DNA of 64,000 nucleotides from an uncultured Flavobacteriales bacterium. GTDB taxonomy: Bacteria > Bacteroidota > Bacteroidia > Flavobacteriales_G > Salibacteraceae. Positions 1 through 8,633 of the stretch are shown piece by piece. Numbering within the stretch: position 1 is the stretch's first letter; the number at the start of each line of letters is the position of its first letter. Under the pieces are notes generated by a model that searched no databases, had not been told where the DNA came from, and was given only the letters and a program-made list of their open reading frames with translations. Position numbers and translations under genes: made by a program. Where the stretch lies: NCBI GenBank assembly GCA_943788725.1, contig CALSRJ010000005.1:1-64000 (forward strand). The letters are read 5' to 3'.

Positions 1-1040
1 TTAATTCAGCTACCTCTAAGCCCCTTAAATAGGTTAGGGATACATTCAGGCTTGAATGACCCATCACCTTCTGTAGCTTCACTAATGAGCCTGTGCGCTT
101 GTAGATTTCTATAGCCCCAGAGTGTCTGAAAGAGTATAGAGTCTGATTGGTGTCAATCAGCTTAGATTGGCTCTTAAATCGCCTCCAAAGGCACTTAAAG
201 TAGTCCTGGTTGTATGCCTTCTGATTACCACTGAATACATTACAGTTTAAGTCTCCAGCATGAAGGTTCTCTCGGATGTATTTTGGGACAGGAACTATCC
301 TGTTTCGTCCTGATTTATTCCGATGCCCTGATAGGTGTATTTGACTCAGGTCGTTAGAGAAGTCCCCCCAACATAACTCCCTTATTTCTCGATGTGGTCT
401 GAGGAGGCATCCGTATGTCAGAAGACAACACAGGTGAGAGGTTACTGTTAAAGGCTTTTATCTCATCTAGAATGAGGCCGATGTCTCTGAAGGGTTTATG
501 GAGCTTAGCCTTTGCCTTTTTACTCTTATTCTTCAATAGGTCTCTCTCATCCATACCCAGGTTCACAGCCTCATTTATTAGGGCGTTTACATGTCTTCTA
601 AAGGTGTTATAGCTTGTGGCATTGGTGTATCTGTTGAGCATAGCACTTAGTTCATCAGCGCATAGTTTATTGCCATTTGAGGCATCGACAATATCCCTGT
701 AAGTGTAACGAAGGGTTGTTTTGTATTTAGCAGAGTAGTTGCTATTCAGCTTACTGTCTAAAGCAAGCTTGAGGTACTCTAGGTCAGATAACCGACCTGA
801 TTGGATTGTTTCTCTTCGATGTGACTTTAGAACACCCCCTTTGGTGATGTGACTATAAACCTCCGCAGCTAGTAAATTAGCCATTGATAGACGATGTTCT
901 ATGGGGTGGTTATTCGGGTTTAACGAGCTGTTAATTCTTTTGCCGCTATACAACCTTATTTTCTGATTATTCAGATGAAACGAGATGAAGACTTTAAGGT
1001 CTTTGGTTTGACCAACCTTGGGGTAACTTAGATTTCTCAC
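1..1040 (-). pseudogene. Tyrosine recombinase (phage-type integrase), frameshifted and cut by the window edge
   Basis: Site-specific tyrosine recombinase of the Bacteroidota integrative-element type. The N-terminal SAM-like DNA-binding part reads in one frame from the ATG at 1040 to about position 440. The catalytic domain continues in another frame to the window edge with motifs LLTYGCLLRPHREI (catalytic Arg), NKSGRNRIVPVP (Lys), YSFRH, VMGHSS and TYLRG (Tyr nucleophile). Without correction the first frame stops at 354. One surplus base near 436-438 would restore the expected NLYLCCLLTYG junction, so this is either a real inactivating frameshift or a base-call error. All catalytic boxes survive, apart from the first His of the usual HxxR, which is Tyr here. 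The gene sits next to a tRNA-Asn 3' fragment, as expected for an integrase at its own attachment site. The stop codon lies outside the window. Confidence 0.85.
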
Positions 1041-1116
1041 AGACAGTTCTTAGACAGTTAAACATTTATTAGATGCTTAATGCCTGGTATACAGTAACTT
1101 GTGTGGGATGAACTCA

Positions 1117-1162
1117 TGACTGTTAATCAGAGGGTCCTTGGTTCGAGCCCAAGAGGAGGAGC
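1117..1162 (+). repeat. tRNA-Asn 3'-half fragment, probable attachment site
   Basis: The sequence matches the 3' part of a tRNA-Asn: anticodon arm with GTT (TGACTGTTAATCAGAG), variable loop, a T-arm with CTTGG/CCAAG stem around TTCGAGC, and an acceptor 3' strand ending GGAGGAGC. No D-arm or 5' acceptor strand precedes it, so it is not a functional tRNA. Such a 3' duplicate next to an integrase is the usual scar left when an element integrates into a tRNA gene. The intact tRNA would then lie beyond the left edge of the window. The natural tRNA terminator follows directly. Confidence 0.8.
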
Positions 1163-1166
1163 GTTA

Positions 1167-1193
1167 AGCCTTGCAGAGATGCAGGGCTTTTTT
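1167..1193 (+). terminator. Rho-independent terminator behind the tRNA-Asn fragment
   Basis: The stem AGCC-T-TGCA / TGCA-G-GGCT closes over GAGA and is followed by a run of T. It probably terminated the original tRNA-Asn transcript. Confidence 0.75.
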
Positions 1194-1381
1194 GTTAACA
1201 GTCAGAGGTCGTCTTTATTTTGTTGGAAGTCTTGGCACGACTCGGTTTCATGATTGTTTTTTAAACAATCAATCACCTTAATGCTCCACCAACTTTCGCT
1301 ATGTAACCCGTTGTGCCCGAAATCTTTGAAGACGCACAATTGTGTAAATCTATTGCGTTTAAAGAACTAAAAACACTCGCC
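1194..1381. other. Non-coding stretch between the att-like site and the first membrane gene
   Basis: I see no convincing gene here. A small hairpin-like element (GATTGTTTTTTAAACAATC) lies near 1252-1270 and a GTAACCCGTTGTGCCC stretch near 1305. An open frame on the opposite strand is a shadow of the next gene. Confidence 0.4.
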
Positions 1382-1768
1382 ATGAAAACAAAAACCACCA
1401 TTACCCTAATAGGGGTATTAAACATCTTACAAGGCGTTGGCTTTATTATCGGAGGCCGAACCTTAACAGAACAATCATTTCCATCGGACATGCTCACCCC
1501 TGGAGCCGTTGAAGTAGGGACGGCAATGCATTGGCCTTTAGGCGTAGCTTGTATTGTCATTGGTATAATCCTTTTTTCAACCCGAGATCTTCCTTTGGTG
1601 AACGCAAAAAAAGTCCTGCTATATACGGGTATCGCGTACACCTTCTTCCTTATTAACGGGCTTACTCAACATTTCACGAGCCCTGTAAATGTCCCCATGC
1701 CCGCCGTAGGCTTAATTACGGTTTTAGCCATTTTGGCCTTCTACACATCTAAAACAGCAAAATCTTAA
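1382..1768 (+). CDS. Small multi-pass membrane protein, function unknown
   Basis: A 128-residue hydrophobic protein beginning MKTKTTITLIGVLN, with about four predicted membrane segments (residues roughly 6-25, 47-66, 77-95 and 103-121) and a short charged C-terminus. I do not recognise the family. The ATG at 1382 is preferred to the upstream in-frame start at 1313 because the extra 23 residues are polar and the hydrophobic segment follows directly. It lies 23 bp before a second membrane-protein gene on the same strand. The pair is bracketed by two tRNA-Asn 3' fragments, so both may be cargo of an old integrated element. Confidence 0.65.
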   Translation: MKTKTTITLIGVLNILQGVGFIIGGRTLTEQSFPSDMLTPGAVEVGTAMHWPLGVACIVIGIILFSTRDLPLVNAKKVLLYTGIAYTFFLINGLTQHFTSPVNVPMPAVGLITVLAILAFYTSKTAKS

Positions 1769-1791
1769 TATTCATCTAAACACTCTAAAAC

Positions 1792-2247
1792 ATGGAAATC
1801 TTAATTGTCGCAATTGTAATCTCTGCCATAAGTATTTATGGTGCAGTAATGCTTAAACGCTTGTACTTCTTATTGGGGTACTTCCTATTCTCGCTTCTCG
1901 CATTAACATCACTCATCCCAACCTATAATGATGATAAAATGCTCGCGCTTACCTCCATTGCACTCTTTTTGGTGATGGGTATCATCTCGTTCCCTGCAAA
2001 AAAGAATATCTCAGACTACGAGATGAACGAAGAGGTCAAGCCTTTAGTGAAATCCTTTATGCTCAAAACGCTACTCTCTTTGAGTGCCGTCAACCTCATT
2101 GCTATTTTGTTGGTAAAGTATGATCCTAACATGCCTGAAGGCATTACAGAATCTATGCGCATCTACCCAATGATTATGCACGGTGTATTGGGCGTTCTTC
2201 CGCTTTACGTACTTGTGAGAATGTCACAATCAAGCAAGTTGAAGTAA
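1792..2247 (+). CDS. Small multi-pass membrane protein, function unknown
   Basis: A 151-residue protein with about four hydrophobic segments (residues roughly 2-20, 25-45, 50-68 and 93-108, possibly a fifth near 127-145) and a charged cytoplasmic-looking loop in the middle (KKNISDYEMNEEVKP). No enzymatic motif is visible and I cannot assign a family. It follows the previous membrane gene by 23 bp and is probably co-transcribed with it. It ends 35 bp before a degenerate tRNA-Asn-like repeat. A role in the membrane is all that can be inferred. Confidence 0.65.
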   Translation: MEILIVAIVISAISIYGAVMLKRLYFLLGYFLFSLLALTSLIPTYNDDKMLALTSIALFLVMGIISFPAKKNISDYEMNEEVKPLVKSFMLKTLLSLSAVNLIAILLVKYDPNMPEGITESMRIYPMIMHGVLGVLPLYVLVRMSQSSKLK

Positions 2248-2282
2248 TGGCTTAGCATTCTTTAAAATAGAACGCAACTTCA

Positions 2283-2314
2283 GGGGTCCTTTGTTCGAAC
2301 CCAAAAGAAGTAGC
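2283..2314 (+). repeat. Second, degenerate tRNA-Asn 3'-end fragment
   Basis: This 32-base stretch matches 1131-1162 at 26 of 32 positions without gaps, including the variable loop, TTCGA of the T-loop and the 3' acceptor strand ending AGC. The T-stem pairing is damaged, so it is a decayed copy. Together with 1117-1162 it forms an imperfect direct repeat around the two membrane-protein genes. Confidence 0.6.
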
Positions 2315-2337
2315 AACTAAAATGATAAAACTTTTAT

Positions 2338-2679
2338 AGTGTAGAGGTTTTTATACCTCTATTAATATATTCCCTTATATCTTTTACCTCTTATGGCATA
2401 ATACATTTCTTTCTCAGTCTTGAAGATGCCGGTATAGTTAGGTTTGAATGGTTCGTAAATGAAGCAGAAAATACTGCAACGCTAATAGAGGTTTTTGAAA
2501 ATGCGAATGCATTCCAAGAATTAGGAGGTAAGGTCTTAGGGTCTCCAATTAATATAAGGTTCAATGAAGTCTTTAAAATAAACAGCTTAACTGTGCTCGG
2601 CGAAGTAAGTAGCGAATTCAGGGAAAAACTAAAGCCAATGGGTGCAGCCTTTAATGTTTACGTCGGTGGTATAAACTGA
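2338..2679 (+). pseudogene. 5'-truncated gene remnant, possibly ABM/monooxygenase-like
   Basis: An open frame from about 2338 to a TGA at 2677-2679 encodes a protein-like sequence (from DAGIVRFEWFVNEAEN to GAAFNVYVGGIN at the end). No usable start codon precedes it; the only in-frame ATG is about 16 residues from the stop. The alternation of beta-strand-like and helix-like stretches and the motif LTVLGEVS resemble small ABM-type (antibiotic biosynthesis monooxygenase-like) proteins, but that is from memory and weak. The N-terminus seems to have been lost at the boundary of the tRNA-fragment region about 25 bp upstream, which fits truncation by an integration or deletion event. Confidence 0.5.
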
Positions 2680-2760
2680 TTGAGTACCAATATAAACCGA
2701 ATCCACTAATAGATTTAGTTCCGCTGCAACTTTGAACAATAAGGGGAGCATAGCGACGAC

Positions 2761-2792
2761 AGCCCCATTCACATCGTGGATGGGGCTTTTTA
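2761..2792 (+). terminator. Rho-independent terminator
   Basis: A strong hairpin AGCCCCAT-T-CAC / GTG-G-ATGGGGCT with loop ATC is followed by TTTTTA on the plus strand. It would end plus-strand transcription from the truncated gene and separates it from the convergent repeat-protein gene. Confidence 0.75.
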
Positions 2793-2842
2793 TTGCCCAA
2801 CATTTGAGACGTGCCTGGCTCACACATCAACACGCACGCTGC

Positions 2843-3664
2843 TTATCGTATATCCTTCATCTTAGGCATGACGCCCCCGTCAAACAGGTCCATTTCCCCT
2901 CTGGGATTTTGTGGCCTGTTTTGCTTTCTAGCGTCTCGGCCAAAGTGGTCGCGGTGTTTGCGCCTTTCATTTTTGACGGCTTTTTTCTTCTTCTGATTTG
3001 GGTCGCGCGAGAAAAGCTTGAACCGTTCTCCTATGAAATTTTCCTTAAGGAAGCGTTTCTTGTCAAAGCTTACGTCTACGTCATCTTCTGAAGCTTCGTT
3101 GCTCTTCCCTTTGCTTGCGAAATGATCTTTCGATTCCTTACGCTTTCCCTCTTTTTTTGATGCTACTCCAAAATGGTCCTTTGGCTCTTTGCGTTTTATG
3201 TCCGCGTCCTTCTTTCCGAAATGATCACTGAGCAATTCGCGCTTTACCTTTCCCCCTTTTCGTCCAAAAAAATCGGGTTGCGCGGTTCGTTCTCTTTCCT
3301 TTTTGATGGCCGTTGCAAAGAAGGAGGGCAGCTGATTTCGTTCGTCTAGTTTCTTCACGGCTTTTGCATAAAAATCAGGCAAGAACGCGTCCTTCTCTTT
3401 TTTCTGCTTCGTTTGTTTGGAGAATGCGCTGCCCAATTCCTCTCTATCCTTCGACTTTGGGCTCTTCTTTCCAAATGCGCTTGAGAGCTGGGTGCGGTTC
3501 TTTTCCTTCTTGTTTTTCTTACCGAATGCACTGCTTAACTCTTGCTTCTCCTTCGGTTTTATTTTCTTTCCAAAGTGGTCCTTGACTCCGTCGTCCGACG
3601 ACTGCGAAAACGCACCCTGCGAAAGCAGTAAAAGAGCGACGATATAGAGCTTATGGTGTTCCAC
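2843..3664 (-). CDS. Secreted basic protein with ten 17-residue Phe-anchored repeats
   Basis: A 273-residue protein with a signal peptide (LYIVALLLLSQGAFSQ, cleavage near residue 20). Residues 29-185 hold ten repeats of a short motif, DHFGKK or a variant (SAFGKK, SAFSKQ, PDFYAK, PSFFAT, PDFFGR, DHFGVA, DHFASK). The anchoring Phe recurs at residues 31, 47, 64, 81, 98, 115, 132, 149, 165 and 182, a spacing of 16-17. The linkers are Lys/Arg/Glu-rich, so the mature protein is very basic. Another DHFG copy stands at 239-242 and a related MDLFDGG near 258. I know no family with this pattern. It lies 26 bp behind recO and in the same direction as porZ and recO, so it is probably part of that transcription unit and acts in the periplasm or at the surface. 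Confidence 0.75.
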   Translation of the reverse strand: MEHHKLYIVALLLLSQGAFSQSSDDGVKDHFGKKIKPKEKQELSSAFGKKNKKEKNRTQLSSAFGKKSPKSKDREELGSAFSKQTKQKKEKDAFLPDFYAKAVKKLDERNQLPSFFATAIKKERERTAQPDFFGRKGGKVKRELLSDHFGKKDADIKRKEPKDHFGVASKKEGKRKESKDHFASKGKSNEASEDDVDVSFDKKRFLKENFIGERFKLFSRDPNQKKKKAVKNERRKHRDHFGRDARKQNRPQNPRGEMDLFDGGVMPKMKDIR

Positions 3665-3690: not shown

Positions 3691-4311
3691 TCAGTCAATC
3701 AGGTCGAGCGACCCTAGGTGTTCGATTCCAAAATGTTGTTGGAATCGCTGTACTTCAATATTGAAAGCCTCTTTTGACTGCTGTCCACCTGAAGGAATTT
3801 CAAGCGTTCTGCCGATGCCGAGCAATTGCAAAGAGCGAAGAGGGTCTTCTTGGGCAAGCTCGAAGACCATGGCCACATCACTCAATCCCAATTCGCTGGA
3901 GATGACGACAAGCGGAACAAGTGGATCAGTTGAAATACCTCCTTGGGTCAAGTATCCAAAATAGGTGGATAGACGGTGGTAAAGTTGTGGGAGAATCAGT
4001 CTTTCACGCAAAGATTTTTGGAGTAGTTCGACCGCAAACAGCCACAGCGCGGCGGCTTCGCCCCCCATTGGGTCCGTAGGGATTCGTGGGTTCCATCGGG
4101 AATCCATCAACGACATCATTTCTGAGCCTGCCTTTTCTCTAGCAGTAAATTGAATGAAAGAACCAGGCTGCAAATGTCCAGAAACGCGTTTTTTACCGAT
4201 CCGAGTGAAGAGGGTCACCAAGCCATTGTTTTCCGTGAAACAATTCAAGATGCGAGCGCTGTCAGAATAGGGGATTGAACGAACGATGATGCCGTGATCG
4301 TTGACCATCAT
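3691..4311 (-). CDS. recO: DNA repair protein RecO
   Basis: RecO loads RecA onto SSB-coated single-stranded DNA in the RecFOR gap-repair pathway and anneals complementary strands. The 206-residue product has the N-terminal OB-fold (GIIVRSIPYSDSARILNCFT, then a VTLFTRIGKKR strand) and the helical C-terminal half typical of RecO. The zinc-finger cysteines of some RecO proteins are absent, which is common in this phylum. It starts 3 bp after the porZ-like stop, so the two are almost certainly co-transcribed. That neighbourhood is often seen in Bacteroidota. At 206 residues it is slightly short for the family but complete. Confidence 0.92.
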   Translation of the reverse strand: MMVNDHGIIVRSIPYSDSARILNCFTENNGLVTLFTRIGKKRVSGHLQPGSFIQFTAREKAGSEMMSLMDSRWNPRIPTDPMGGEAAALWLFAVELLQKSLRERLILPQLYHRLSTYFGYLTQGGISTDPLVPLVVISSELGLSDVAMVFELAQEDPLRSLQLLGIGRTLEIPSGGQQSKEAFNIEVQRFQQHFGIEHLGSLDLID

Positions 4312-4314
4312 GGA

Positions 4315-6591
4315 TCAATTGAGGAACATCAATTTGGAAAGGGCTCCTCCCGTCCCATCTCTTCGGGCGGCCTGTATTAGGTAGATTCCGCTTGTCACCT
4401 TAACACCAGCGCGATCTAAGCCATTCCATATGGCCGTACCGCCCTTGCTCGTTGTCTCATAGATCAAGTTTCCCGACACATCGGTCACCCTAAGGTAGCT
4501 GTTGTCCGTGAGCCCACTAAAGGTGATTACACCGCCGTATCCGGGCTTGACAGGATTCGGAAAGACGCGTATAGACGAAAGGCTCTCAGCGGGTTCTGAC
4601 GCATCGGTGCGGTACGATTGAAGTCCGCTTTCGGTGGCAATGAAGAGTTCTCCCGTGCTAGGATGTAAAACTAAGTCGAGAATGTTGTCATTTAGCAACG
4701 GGCTGTCGCCTTCGGTGAAATGCTCCAATTGCTGCTGACCGTCTTTCGAAATAAGAAAGAGCCCTGCTCCTCGTGGGCCTACCCACTTTCTATTGGCGCC
4801 GTCTATGGTGATGGTAATAACGGCGTCGGAGGCAAAGAGGTAGCCGTTATAGCCATCTTGATTGACGATGATCCTTTGCACTTCATCGGCATTGGCCTCA
4901 AACATGGATTCGACGCTGTAGATTACCCCTATTCCTTCATCTGTTCCAATCCACAGTTCGCCGTCTTTGTCCTCCACTATACAATTGACTGTATTGTTGG
5001 GTAGATTTCCTTTGGAAGGAGACGAATTGATGGAAATAAAACGGTCGTCCGCCGTGTTCGTGGGCGTACCTGCTGGATCATAAAGAATAACCCCCTGCTC
5101 TTTGAGGGAGAAAGCAAAAATGCCCGATGAATGTTGCATGAAATTGTCTGCAATTGGTTTCGGAAACCCCTCCAATGATATCAAGGTCCAATCCCCTTCT
5201 GGATCGAGAATGCTCAACGTGGATGTAGCGCGACTATTTAGCATCCATAAATTCCCCTCATTGTCCAATTCCATACCCTTGAGGCCGTAGTAACCATCTA
5301 CATCATCTTCGATTTCAGCATTCTGTTCACTGAAGTGCTCGAGCACGTTCAACTCCGCATCCAGAATCATCAACCCACTTCCATCGAAGCCTACATAAAT
5401 GCGGTCTCCATCGTCAATAATGGAGGAGGTGTTTCGAATGTCAAAGTTCGTGTCGAGAAAAAGCAAGCGCGACTTCCACTCTTCCTCTTCAAAACGGAAA
5501 ACAAAGGGTTGATTAAACGTAAAGTCATTCCCCCCAGGCATAGCGTATACAACTTCGTTCGTCTCTTCTAACTCACCGATGTATCCGGCACGTGGAGACG
5601 AAATACTCACTAGTGTGGAGTTGAATTGATTGTCGAACGAAGTGGACACAACACCATGGAATCCGTCGGCAATCAAGACGTCGCCTTCATGCCCCATGAT
5701 TACCATGTTCGCGTCCATCCCTTCAGAGCCATAAGTAAAGATCTTTTGAAGTTGTTGAAAGCTCTTGCTGTAGCTCGACACTTCATCGCTTTGGGCAATC
5801 AGCAATAAGTCGCCCACCTGTTCAACGTGACGAAGTTCCAATCCGGCCAATGGGTCAATCGGGACAAAGGCATTGTCCACCAACTGGAACAGCGTATCCT
5901 TTCCGAAATCGTCATTGCTGTAGATCGCGTACAGATCCTCATCAATGAGAAAAAGCTGCTTAAATCGATTCGGATCTCCATTTGTATTTACCTCCCATAG
6001 CTGCGGGCCGATAAATAAGCTAGCCATGGGAATGGCAAAAACATGAAACGGCGAGGTTAGGAACAGCGTGTCGCGATGAATCAAAATCTGATTCAATTGA
6101 ATGTTTTCCTCTTGGTAAGTAATTTGACTGTACTCGTTGACATTGTAGGTGGTAAGGTCCAGCTCGAGCACACCGATGCCCGTAGCCAAGAATGCACTGC
6201 CTTGATAGAAGAAAATATCGCGTACGGCTTTATCACCGATGATATTACTGGTGACAATGGCAGGTTGATTGGTCACATTTCCCTCCGCATCAATGATGTC
6301 CAAGTTTCCATTCTCATAGCCAATGATGCAGCGACCATCCTCATAGGAGCAGGCGAAATGTGAAATGCCCGTTTGAGAAAGCACATTTATCTTAGTGAGG
6401 TCTTGAATGGAACCATCCTCTCGATCATAAGCAATTACACCAAACGTGTTTGCTCCATACACCCCATCCACCAATTCGCCGACCCAATCAAAACGAGACA
6501 TGGGAAGATGAGAACGCCATTGCTCCACACCAACTTGGGCAAAAACATTCGAAGAGAGAAAACAGATGAGCACAAGGAGTAGATTCTTCAC
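4315..6591 (-). CDS. porZ: PorZ-like T9SS beta-propeller protein with C-terminal sorting tail
   Basis: PorZ is a surface component of the T9SS attachment complex that helps transfer cargo to the cell surface. This product has a signal peptide (VKNLLLVLICFLSSNVFAQ), an early WRSHLPMSRFDWV block, NVLSQTGISHF and YENGNLDIIDAEG motifs in two propeller-like regions, then the two-component-regulator propeller motif LWIGTDEGIGVIY near residue 560. A typical sorting tail closes it (VFPNPVKPGYGGVITF ... GIYLIQA). I chose the GTG at 6591 because it begins exactly at the signal peptide; an upstream ATG at 6690 would add 33 residues before it. It is followed after 3 bp by recO. The assignment to PorZ rather than a generic propeller cargo rests on N-terminal motifs and the recO context. 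Confidence 0.78.
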   Translation of the reverse strand: MKNLLLVLICFLSSNVFAQVGVEQWRSHLPMSRFDWVGELVDGVYGANTFGVIAYDREDGSIQDLTKINVLSQTGISHFACSYEDGRCIIGYENGNLDIIDAEGNVTNQPAIVTSNIIGDKAVRDIFFYQGSAFLATGIGVLELDLTTYNVNEYSQITYQEENIQLNQILIHRDTLFLTSPFHVFAIPMASLFIGPQLWEVNTNGDPNRFKQLFLIDEDLYAIYSNDDFGKDTLFQLVDNAFVPIDPLAGLELRHVEQVGDLLLIAQSDEVSSYSKSFQQLQKIFTYGSEGMDANMVIMGHEGDVLIADGFHGVVSTSFDNQFNSTLVSISSPRAGYIGELEETNEVVYAMPGGNDFTFNQPFVFRFEEEEWKSRLLFLDTNFDIRNTSSIIDDGDRIYVGFDGSGLMILDAELNVLEHFSEQNAEIEDDVDGYYGLKGMELDNEGNLWMLNSRATSTLSILDPEGDWTLISLEGFPKPIADNFMQHSSGIFAFSLKEQGVILYDPAGTPTNTADDRFISINSSPSKGNLPNNTVNCIVEDKDGELWIGTDEGIGVIYSVESMFEANADEVQRIIVNQDGYNGYLFASDAVITITIDGANRKWVGPRGAGLFLISKDGQQQLEHFTEGDSPLLNDNILDLVLHPSTGELFIATESGLQSYRTDASEPAESLSSIRVFPNPVKPGYGGVITFSGLTDNSYLRVTDVSGNLIYETTSKGGTAIWNGLDRAGVKVTSGIYLIQAARRDGTGGALSKLMFLN

Positions 6592-6743
6592 GAAAGAAGA
6601 ACGAACACCTTCAAAATTATTGTGAATCAAGCTTAACACCCTGTTTATCAATCTATTATATAACACAATTCGTCTATTCGAACATCTCACTATTTCCAGC
6701 CCCGGTATCCATACGTACGCTCAAAGCCCTCATAAGCCATGTT

Positions 6744-8633
6744 TCATGTTTCATGTGAAACACTCCGCTCAATGGCCACCATCAGCACCGAAATGTCAAC
6801 TGGCTTAACGCCAGGAATGCGGGAGGCCTGTCCTAGGTTCTCGGGACGGACTCGACTCAACTTATCACGAGATTCAAAAGAAATTGCAGCATGCGCACGG
6901 TAATCAAATTCGGCCGGAATTTTCATGCGATCCATGTTGCTCATTTTCTGAGCCATCTCATTCTCGCGTCTCAAATACCCCTCATACTTCAGCAGGATTT
7001 CTGCTGACTCTATCGCCTCACGGGAGATGACTTTGTCATCCATGTGGGTGCTGTAATCACTCGATAATTTGATCAATTCCTCCGTAGCAACATTTGGTCT
7101 CGTAAGCACCGTTGAAAGTTTTACTTGTTGATTGATCGGCTTCGAGCCCTGATCTTCAAGGTATGCATTTGCTTCCTCGGGAGTTATGGCATACTTATTC
7201 AATCCCTTGATGACAGCATCGCGCTGAGAGGTATACTTATTCAAAGCACGCATGCGCTCGTCGCTCGCCAATCCTATCGAATGACCTATAGGGGTAAGTC
7301 TTTCGGCGGCACTATCTTGCCTCAGCGTAATGCGGTATTCGGCTCTCGAAGTAAACATGCGGTATGGCTCATCCGTACCCTTCGTTATTAAATCATCGAT
7401 CAAAACACCGATGTAGGCATCCTTTCGCGTTAGCACCAATGCCTCTTGATCAGAAACTACACGGTGCGCATTGATACCGGCCATGAGTCCTTGAGCCGCC
7501 GCCTCTTCATACCCTGTAGTGCCGTTGATCTGCCCTGCAAAGAAAAGCCCATCAACGAGCTTCGTTTCCAGCGACATCTTCAATTGGGTAGGGGGAAAAT
7601 AATCGTATTCAATTGCATAGCCTGGCCTAAACATTACCGCTCTTTCAAAGCCAGCGATCATGCGAACGGCTTTTTCTTGGACCTCAAAAGGAAGAGAGGT
7701 ACTGAAGCCATTCACGTACACCTCATGTGTATCCCATCCTTCCGGCTCTACAAAAATTTGGTGCCGAGATTTATCTGCAAAACGGTGAATCTTATCCTCT
7801 ATCGATGGGCAATAACGCGGACCTACAGAGTCTATCTGCCCGTTATACATCGGTGACTGATCTATACTCTCCGCAATGACCTCGTGAACGTGGGGATCCG
7901 TGTAGGTGATGTGACAACTCAATTGATCGCGTAAACGAACAGGACCAAGAAACGAGAACTTAAACGGATCCTTATCCCCCAACTGCTCCTCCATTTTCGA
8001 ATAGTCTAAGCTACGACCATCCATTCTTGGAGGTGTCCCCGTTTTCATTCGACCACTCTCAAACCCCAATCGAACCAACTGTTCCGTGATCCCAGTCGAC
8101 GCCTTCTCTCCCATCCTTCCACCACCGAGCATCTTTGGCCCCACATGTATGAGTCCATTCATGAACGTACCACTCGTCAGCACCACACATTTGGACTGAA
8201 ATTTCAATCCCAAAGAGGTCTCTACTCCCTTCAATTTATCACCCTCCATCCAAAGACTAGTGACCGAATCTTGCCAAAAAGAAAGGTTATCGGTATGCTC
8301 CAACATCTCCCTCCATTTCAAGGTAAACAGTGCGCGATCATTTTGCGTTCTCGGACTCCACATTGCAGGTCCCTTGGATCGATTGAGCATCCGAAATTGG
8401 ACTGCGCTGTAATCACTTACCAATCCAGAATAGCCTCCCAGGGCATCGATTTCACGCACGATTTGTCCTTTGGCCACACCCCCCATGGCGGGGTTGCAAG
8501 ACATCTGTGCAAACTTGGTCATGTCCATGGTAATCAGCAAGGTTTTGGACCCAAGGTTCGCTGCAGCTGCTGCAGCTTCACATCCTGCATGTCCGCCCCC
8601 AACTACTATGATATCGTATGTTCTACTTTCCAT
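6744..8633 (-). CDS. mnmG: tRNA uridine-5-carboxymethylaminomethyl(34) synthesis enzyme MnmG (GidA)
   Basis: MnmG with its partner MnmE installs the carboxymethylaminomethyl group on wobble uridine 34 of several tRNAs, using FAD, NADH and a folate carbon. The 629-residue protein has the FAD-binding VVGGGHAGCEAAAAAANLG at residues 10-28, the Cys-containing NPAMGGVAKG segment, a second FAD/NADH region (GTTGYEEAAAQGLMAGINA) and the conserved C-terminal RPENLGQASRIPGVKP. It is full length. Its first codon and its last five codons (VSHET) each lie in a parS-like palindrome. It starts 3 bp after the ybeY stop, in the same direction as ybeY and the DUF4175 gene. Confidence 0.97.
   Translation of the reverse strand: MESRTYDIIVVGGGHAGCEAAAAAANLGSKTLLITMDMTKFAQMSCNPAMGGVAKGQIVREIDALGGYSGLVSDYSAVQFRMLNRSKGPAMWSPRTQNDRALFTLKWREMLEHTDNLSFWQDSVTSLWMEGDKLKGVETSLGLKFQSKCVVLTSGTFMNGLIHVGPKMLGGGRMGEKASTGITEQLVRLGFESGRMKTGTPPRMDGRSLDYSKMEEQLGDKDPFKFSFLGPVRLRDQLSCHITYTDPHVHEVIAESIDQSPMYNGQIDSVGPRYCPSIEDKIHRFADKSRHQIFVEPEGWDTHEVYVNGFSTSLPFEVQEKAVRMIAGFERAVMFRPGYAIEYDYFPPTQLKMSLETKLVDGLFFAGQINGTTGYEEAAAQGLMAGINAHRVVSDQEALVLTRKDAYIGVLIDDLITKGTDEPYRMFTSRAEYRITLRQDSAAERLTPIGHSIGLASDERMRALNKYTSQRDAVIKGLNKYAITPEEANAYLEDQGSKPINQQVKLSTVLTRPNVATEELIKLSSDYSTHMDDKVISREAIESAEILLKYEGYLRRENEMAQKMSNMDRMKIPAEFDYRAHAAISFESRDKLSRVRPENLGQASRIPGVKPVDISVLMVAIERSVSHET
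6747..6762. promoter_or_regulatory. parS-like ParB-binding palindrome at the 3' end of mnmG
   Basis: TGTTTCATGTGAAACA has perfect 7-bp arms TGTTTCA/TGAAACA around TG. It differs from the general bacterial parS TGTTTCACGTGAAACA at one central base. It overlaps the last codons and stop region of mnmG. An extra half-site GTTTCAT lies directly beside it at 6741-6747. Confidence 0.75.

Follow-up and report, generated by a model that had tools for sequence, protein, structure and literature searches.

An exported Phe-repeat protein of Bacteroidota, encoded beside porZ and recO, is associated with a YfiR-like, TPR and SiaA-like gene module

The gene at positions 2843 to 3664 of the window, by which we mean the whole stretch of 64,000 nucleotides from an uncultured Flavobacteriales bacterium analysed here, encodes an exported protein that carries a regular array of Phe-anchored units and for which we use the label REP. 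REP stands for a true family that is conserved and has no curated model. Its association with an envelope-signalling module of three genes, encoding a YfiR/HmsC-like (DUF4154) protein, a TPR protein and a HAMP-SpoIIE (SiaA-like) protein, is better supported than a link to the type IX secretion system (T9SS).

Results

REP (273 amino acids; 2843..3664, stop codon included) reads from a GTG start codon at 3664 to a stop codon at 2843-2845, in an open reading frame whose limits had been given exactly in the initial annotation but which lies on the minus strand. The gene is real: comparison of the window with its nearest relative (G008) gives a dN of 0.08 and a dS of 1.1 (dN/dS ~0.07), with 20 of the 21 Phe retained, and orthologs occur in all genus members; this ratio, the orthologs and the synteny rule out an artefactual or non-coding reading. 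Immediately upstream and co-oriented, as had also been noticed at the outset, lie recO (3691..4311, minus strand; PF11967, RecO_N, 45 bits) and porZ (4315..6690, minus strand; NF052228, 489 bits; PF21544, 80 bits), preceded by a gidA/mnmG-like gene (6744..8633, minus strand) recognised from its open reading frame and blastp synteny and named by sequence inspection. Only 26 nt separate the recO stop from the REP start.

Three segments make up the protein, which is basic in the window species (pI ~10). A Sec signal peptide of the signal peptidase I type is recognised at residues 1-21 (3602..3664, minus strand) by inspection of the sequence, its hydrophobic stretch ending in ..GAFS before Q, and AlphaFold places a helix at residues 2-18. 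Then come ten Phe-anchored units of 16-18 residues with basic spacers (residues 23-189; 3098..3598, minus strand), delineated by a periodicity test, a unit consensus and predicted disorder. The last segment (residues 190-273; 2846..3097, minus strand) is conserved in alignments A1 and A4 and its terminal motif is common to other families; it reads ..NFIGERFKLF..DPN..DHFGR..PRGEMDLFDGGVMPKMKDIR, and GER, PN, D.F and LF..GV.PKM are invariant in both alignments.

The ten anchors fall at residues 31, 47, 64, 81, 98, 115/116, 132/133, 149, 165 and 182, so that the original description of a secreted protein with ten Phe-anchored repeats holds, at a spacing of 16-18 residues across 151 residues. Phe pairs 16 or 17 residues apart number 11, against 2.75 expected and a maximum of 9 among 20,000 shuffles (p<=5e-5), and the same periodicity is significant in most orthologs; the Phe at 200-261 are part of the non-periodic C-terminal segment, not of the array. 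From 320 units in 24 homologs, the consensus is L(-4)xD(-2)[AHS]F[SAG]xK(+3) followed by a K-rich spacer. Phe is also the best-conserved residue class of the protein, with a mean identity of 0.79 in the A1 columns (14 orthologs). No tandem repeat was found at the DNA level in the REP gene, which rules out a minisatellite and argues that the units are old and maintained at the protein level. In one homolog (G203; L096:1276-3507), the array is near-perfect at 16 residues, of the TDQPKDHFATKVKPIN type and with well over ten copies: this is a recent unit expansion.

AlphaFold predicts REP to be disordered (mean pLDDT 55.6, pTM 0.14), and confidence is also low for the C-terminal 88 residues modelled alone (pLDDT 64.8, pTM 0.18), on which grounds a folded solenoid was dismissed. 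Searches of Pfam, NCBIfam, PHROG and PDB sequences gave no match above cut-off, in agreement with the early impression that no known family has this periodicity. In NCBIfam the top match reached 10.7 bits where 387 are needed, and distant members of the family had no match there; none was found in PHROG, nor in PDB sequences with the REP profile A2, and literature searches did not find the family. The sole Pfam shadow match, to nucleoporin FG repeats (PF13634), is to a chain that is disordered, as is predicted for REP, and bears Phe stickers at regular intervals, but at 15.8 bits it lies below the 32.2 cut-off and homology was dismissed; REP is exported, bacterial and basic, with a longer spacing, and the resemblance is in type only. 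The F-G-K-R look of the units also recalls FMRFamide-like peptide precursors, a curiosity with nothing in its favour.

The order gidA-porZ-recO-REP recurs in each of the 13 genomes of the genus that were searched (the window's and 12 others) and in another genus (G015), the exceptions within the genus being interrupted porZ and recO frames in G004 and a contig that stops before gidA in G012; genomes of family f3 have the order porZ-recO-REP. Because REP has no family match and is linked to porZ-recO in every genus relative, the initial view of a repeat protein outside the described families withstands the refutation that was named with it. A TonB-dependent receptor gene lies between recO and REP in G025, G064 and G041 (L079:1361-2437, L121, L149), and some genomes without REP have such a gene directly behind recO.

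On its 3' side REP is flanked by a hot spot of integration at tRNA-Asn(GTT) (window 1-2842; L026:5588-10399; L019:6112-6186): an intact tRNA-Asn lies directly 3' of REP in G003, G007 and G009, while G010 carries at this place a 4.7-kb element with a recombinase-like ORF of 330 amino acids, between 47-bp direct repeats. The window retains one perfect 45-bp core (1118-1162) and a truncated copy of the recombinase-like ORF (354-1040, minus strand); the contigs of G008, G005, G011 and G001 stop right at the hot spot. In G002 and G004, which are otherwise diverged, a 2-kb tract downstream of REP is 98.7% identical (approximately L021:593-2825 and L024:2898-5130), runs into the last ~240 bp of REP and ends abruptly, a recent transfer that swapped the conserved C-terminus.

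Within the order, profile searches detected REP in 19 of 42 genomes, including G025, G039, G041 and family f3, and in the class outside the order they detected it in G064, G107, G203, G173, G086, G044 and G090. It is present in both examined genomes of the G107 order (2/2), in 5/7 of the G203 order and in 7/7 of the G044 family. A phylum-wide family was dismissed: among 395 Bacteroidota genomes drawn evenly, the window's own was the only one with REP. At least five other families contain more distant members; most of these end in [DGEK]LFxxG[VI]xPK, and they score far above residue shuffles and above shuffles that preserve the Phe positions, two controls by which composition-driven false homology was dismissed. 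We define the family by a signal peptide, Phe units at about 16-17 residues and this terminal motif, all of which the window protein has. The motif is found in members from f1, f2, f3, f26 and f57 and is absent or altered in the members from f25 and f6/f48: the f25 protein of G203 ends in DLFGRPMF, and a variant clade in f6 and f48 (L100:1396-2184, L101:1297-2259, L098:1315-1968) has the same Phe spacing with the tail [DG]L[FL].PK..WYK..KRDK. No DUF4154 was found in the genomes of this variant clade, where the repeats are present, and it is possibly a separate branch with another partner. In G038, REP lies in two frames (L029:5279-6624), likely an assembly frameshift or a broken gene.

In four families, f3 (G036, G038), f2 (G041), f26 (G064) and f57 (G107), REP is directly beside DUF4154-TPR(-SiaA-like) genes, and the order in f3, G041, G064 and G107 is REP, DUF4154, TPR and then HAMP-SpoIIE where the contig continues. 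The best NCBIfam profile of the HAMP-SpoIIE gene is SiaA, at 229 bits against a cut-off of 700, and we therefore term its product SiaA-like only; a profile of the module's DUF4154 proteins found no match in the PDB. The order DUF4154-TPR-SiaA is kept in 13/13 genus genomes (in the window's own genome at L145:7872-11118), where the module is not linked to REP on the chromosome; two f25 genomes (G063, G231) have DUF4154-SiaA without the TPR gene. Genes for a small CTD-bearing protein, PorP/SprF and a PorE/OmpA-like protein adjoin the module in G064, G107, G015, G025, G003, G008 and G004. In the window's genome, genes for an OmpA-domain protein, DUF4154, TPR and HAMP-SpoIIE stand in a row (L145:6324-11118) that is kept through the genus and adjoins PorP/SprF in relatives, a YfiBNR-like layout with a phosphatase as effector.

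DUF4154 is present in 26/26 core REP-positive genomes against 14/52 genomes without REP. Within the order, it occurs in 19/19 REP-positive against 2/23 REP-negative genomes, and outside the order in 7/7 core REP-positive against 12/29 other genomes of the class. Naive Fisher tests, which ignore kinship, give 9e-10 by genome and 4e-4 by genus. Just three changes suffice to explain the presence of REP on the PorZ tree of the order, so that the genomes do not count as independent cases and no sign test can be significant: the tree offers 2-3 independent pairs, with no pair pointing the other way, too few for significance. In at least eight genomes with DUF4154-TPR, most of them with SiaA (G035, G037, G045, G046, G047, G055, G058, G101), REP was not detected.

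Discussion

How could an array of Phe units be connected to such a module? In Pseudomonas aeruginosa, the outer-membrane lipoprotein YfiB sequesters YfiR, partly via F48, W55 and F57 of its extended N-terminal loop, which sit in YfiR pockets, F57A lowering the affinity only 3.8-fold (PMC4887326; see also PMC4655355). Because YfiB holds YfiR partly through aromatic anchors, we tentatively propose that REP is a multivalent Phe-sticker partner of the DUF4154-TPR-SiaA-like module, with less than even confidence, the physical binding, the protein bound and the sign of the regulation being what we infer. REP would be an exported, intrinsically disordered polycation that resides in the periplasm or, in the many species with a lipoprotein form, is anchored at the outer membrane, and its array of short Phe-anchored binding motifs and the conserved C-terminal motif would form a multivalent docking chain for the YfiR-like protein, the periplasmic TPR protein and the HAMP-SpoIIE inner-membrane phosphatase. 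Each Phe unit may fill a hydrophobic pocket on its partner, as the aromatics of the YfiB loop do on YfiR, the YfiR-like protein being the most likely to dock. The array could then hold several partner molecules and set the number that are free to act on the phosphatase; SiaA itself is the PP2C-type phosphatase of a partner-switch that controls aggregation (PMC7647112).

REP resembles YfiB in several respects: (i), it is exported and a lipoprotein in many species; (ii), it is co-encoded with a YfiR-like DUF4154 protein and a HAMP-containing membrane effector; (iii), it has an extended aromatic-containing segment, here the proposed binding element. In contrast, REP lacks the OmpA/Pal peptidoglycan-binding domain (it has no OmpA match in Pfam and is predicted to be disordered by AlphaFold), has many Phe units where YfiB has a single loop, and is associated with a SpoIIE phosphatase where YfiBNR has a diguanylate cyclase. 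The OmpA/PorE-like protein encoded beside the module, upstream of it, is an equally good or better counterpart of YfiB, and REP may therefore be an additional scaffold. We give little credence to a further speculation, in which a disordered periplasmic chain with at least ten near-identical aromatic motifs titrates a YfiR-type regulator, and the number of motifs, different from species to species, fixes the level at which a phosphatase switch for envelope stress, itself tied to the type IX secretion/gliding apparatus, responds.

Alternatively, REP and the YfiR module could co-occur through the shared ancestry of one locus (porZ-recO-TonB receptor-REP-DUF4154-TPR-SiaA-PorP-PorE) followed by joint loss, REP having an unrelated function in the envelope. 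This is somewhat unlikely in our estimation: G064, G107 and G041 keep nearly all of the long gene order, and the tree counts only three REP changes, but REP and the module are also retained together where they are chromosomally separated (genus g1, G015, G025, f25).

Rather unlikely, too, is that REP serves as a polycation, at the surface or in the periplasm, for binding to an anionic polymer of the envelope (anionic LPS or O-antigen-like polysaccharide, peptidoglycan, lipid A) through its Lys/Arg spacers and Phe insertion, which would make the envelope stiffer or give order to the T9SS surface next to PorZ. PorZ is reported to deliver anionic LPS in Porphyromonas, and REP adjoins porZ in the genus, G015 and f3. 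Every homolog is basic, with a pI of 9.7-12 and a net charge of +0.07 to +0.27 per residue, with which the DNA- or polyanion-binding function suggested in the initial annotation is compatible; charge by itself is, however, unspecific. The REP spacers drift while Phe and D(-2) are kept, which argues for a protein pocket rather than bulk electrostatics, and REP is absent from many porZ-positive genomes. About half of the homologs have a lipobox Cys at the end of the signal peptide, with acidic residues just after the Cys in several, a resemblance to the surface lipoprotein export signal of Bacteroidetes (PMC5080379) that is suggestive only.

A T9SS accessory factor (for assembly, as a PorZ/PorV partner or as a secretion regulator) retained in the porZ operon is improbable. 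The T9SS link proposed from gene position finds loose support in the neighbourhood: gidA-porZ-recO-REP is conserved with short gaps, the module adjoins PorP/SprF and PorE-like genes, and PorZ, PorP/SprF and PorE belong to the same compartment as REP. It does not extend to occurrence, since 39/42 genomes of the order have porZ and 19/42 have REP, more than half of the porZ-bearing genomes thus lacking it, which rules REP out as a core part of the T9SS. Linkage to porZ is also absent in f25, f26, f57 and f6. REP shares no sequence similarity with these components and, at E 1, has no match to the C-terminal sorting domain (TIGR04183, PF18962), for which it was rejected as a T9SS substrate; the neighbouring PorZ matches TIGR04183 at E 2e-4. 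REP works near the core T9SS and is not part of it.

Finally, REP could be a matrix protein with a structural or adhesive role, or the precursor of peptides: a secreted chain of low complexity in which it is the mass of units that counts (for adhesion, for aggregation, or for small peptides released at dibasic sites). This would fit a unit number of about 4 to over 25 among orthologs, the G203 array and the dibasic runs between units, but is equally improbable given the strong constraint in the window species pair, the conserved non-repetitive C-terminus, the presence of only one copy and the operon-like placement of the gene among housekeeping genes.

As a multivalent partner of the module or otherwise, REP adds to the T9SS and envelope neighbourhood a family without a curated model, present in several Bacteroidota families, and it brings to notice an uncharacterised YfiR-TPR-SiaA-like module that has PorP/SprF and PorE genes as neighbours. 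Should the Phe array bind the YfiR-like protein, a periplasmic sticker-and-spacer chemistry would control a signalling switch; and if the array titrates this YfiR-type regulator, it would represent a previously undescribed principle of bacterial signalling.
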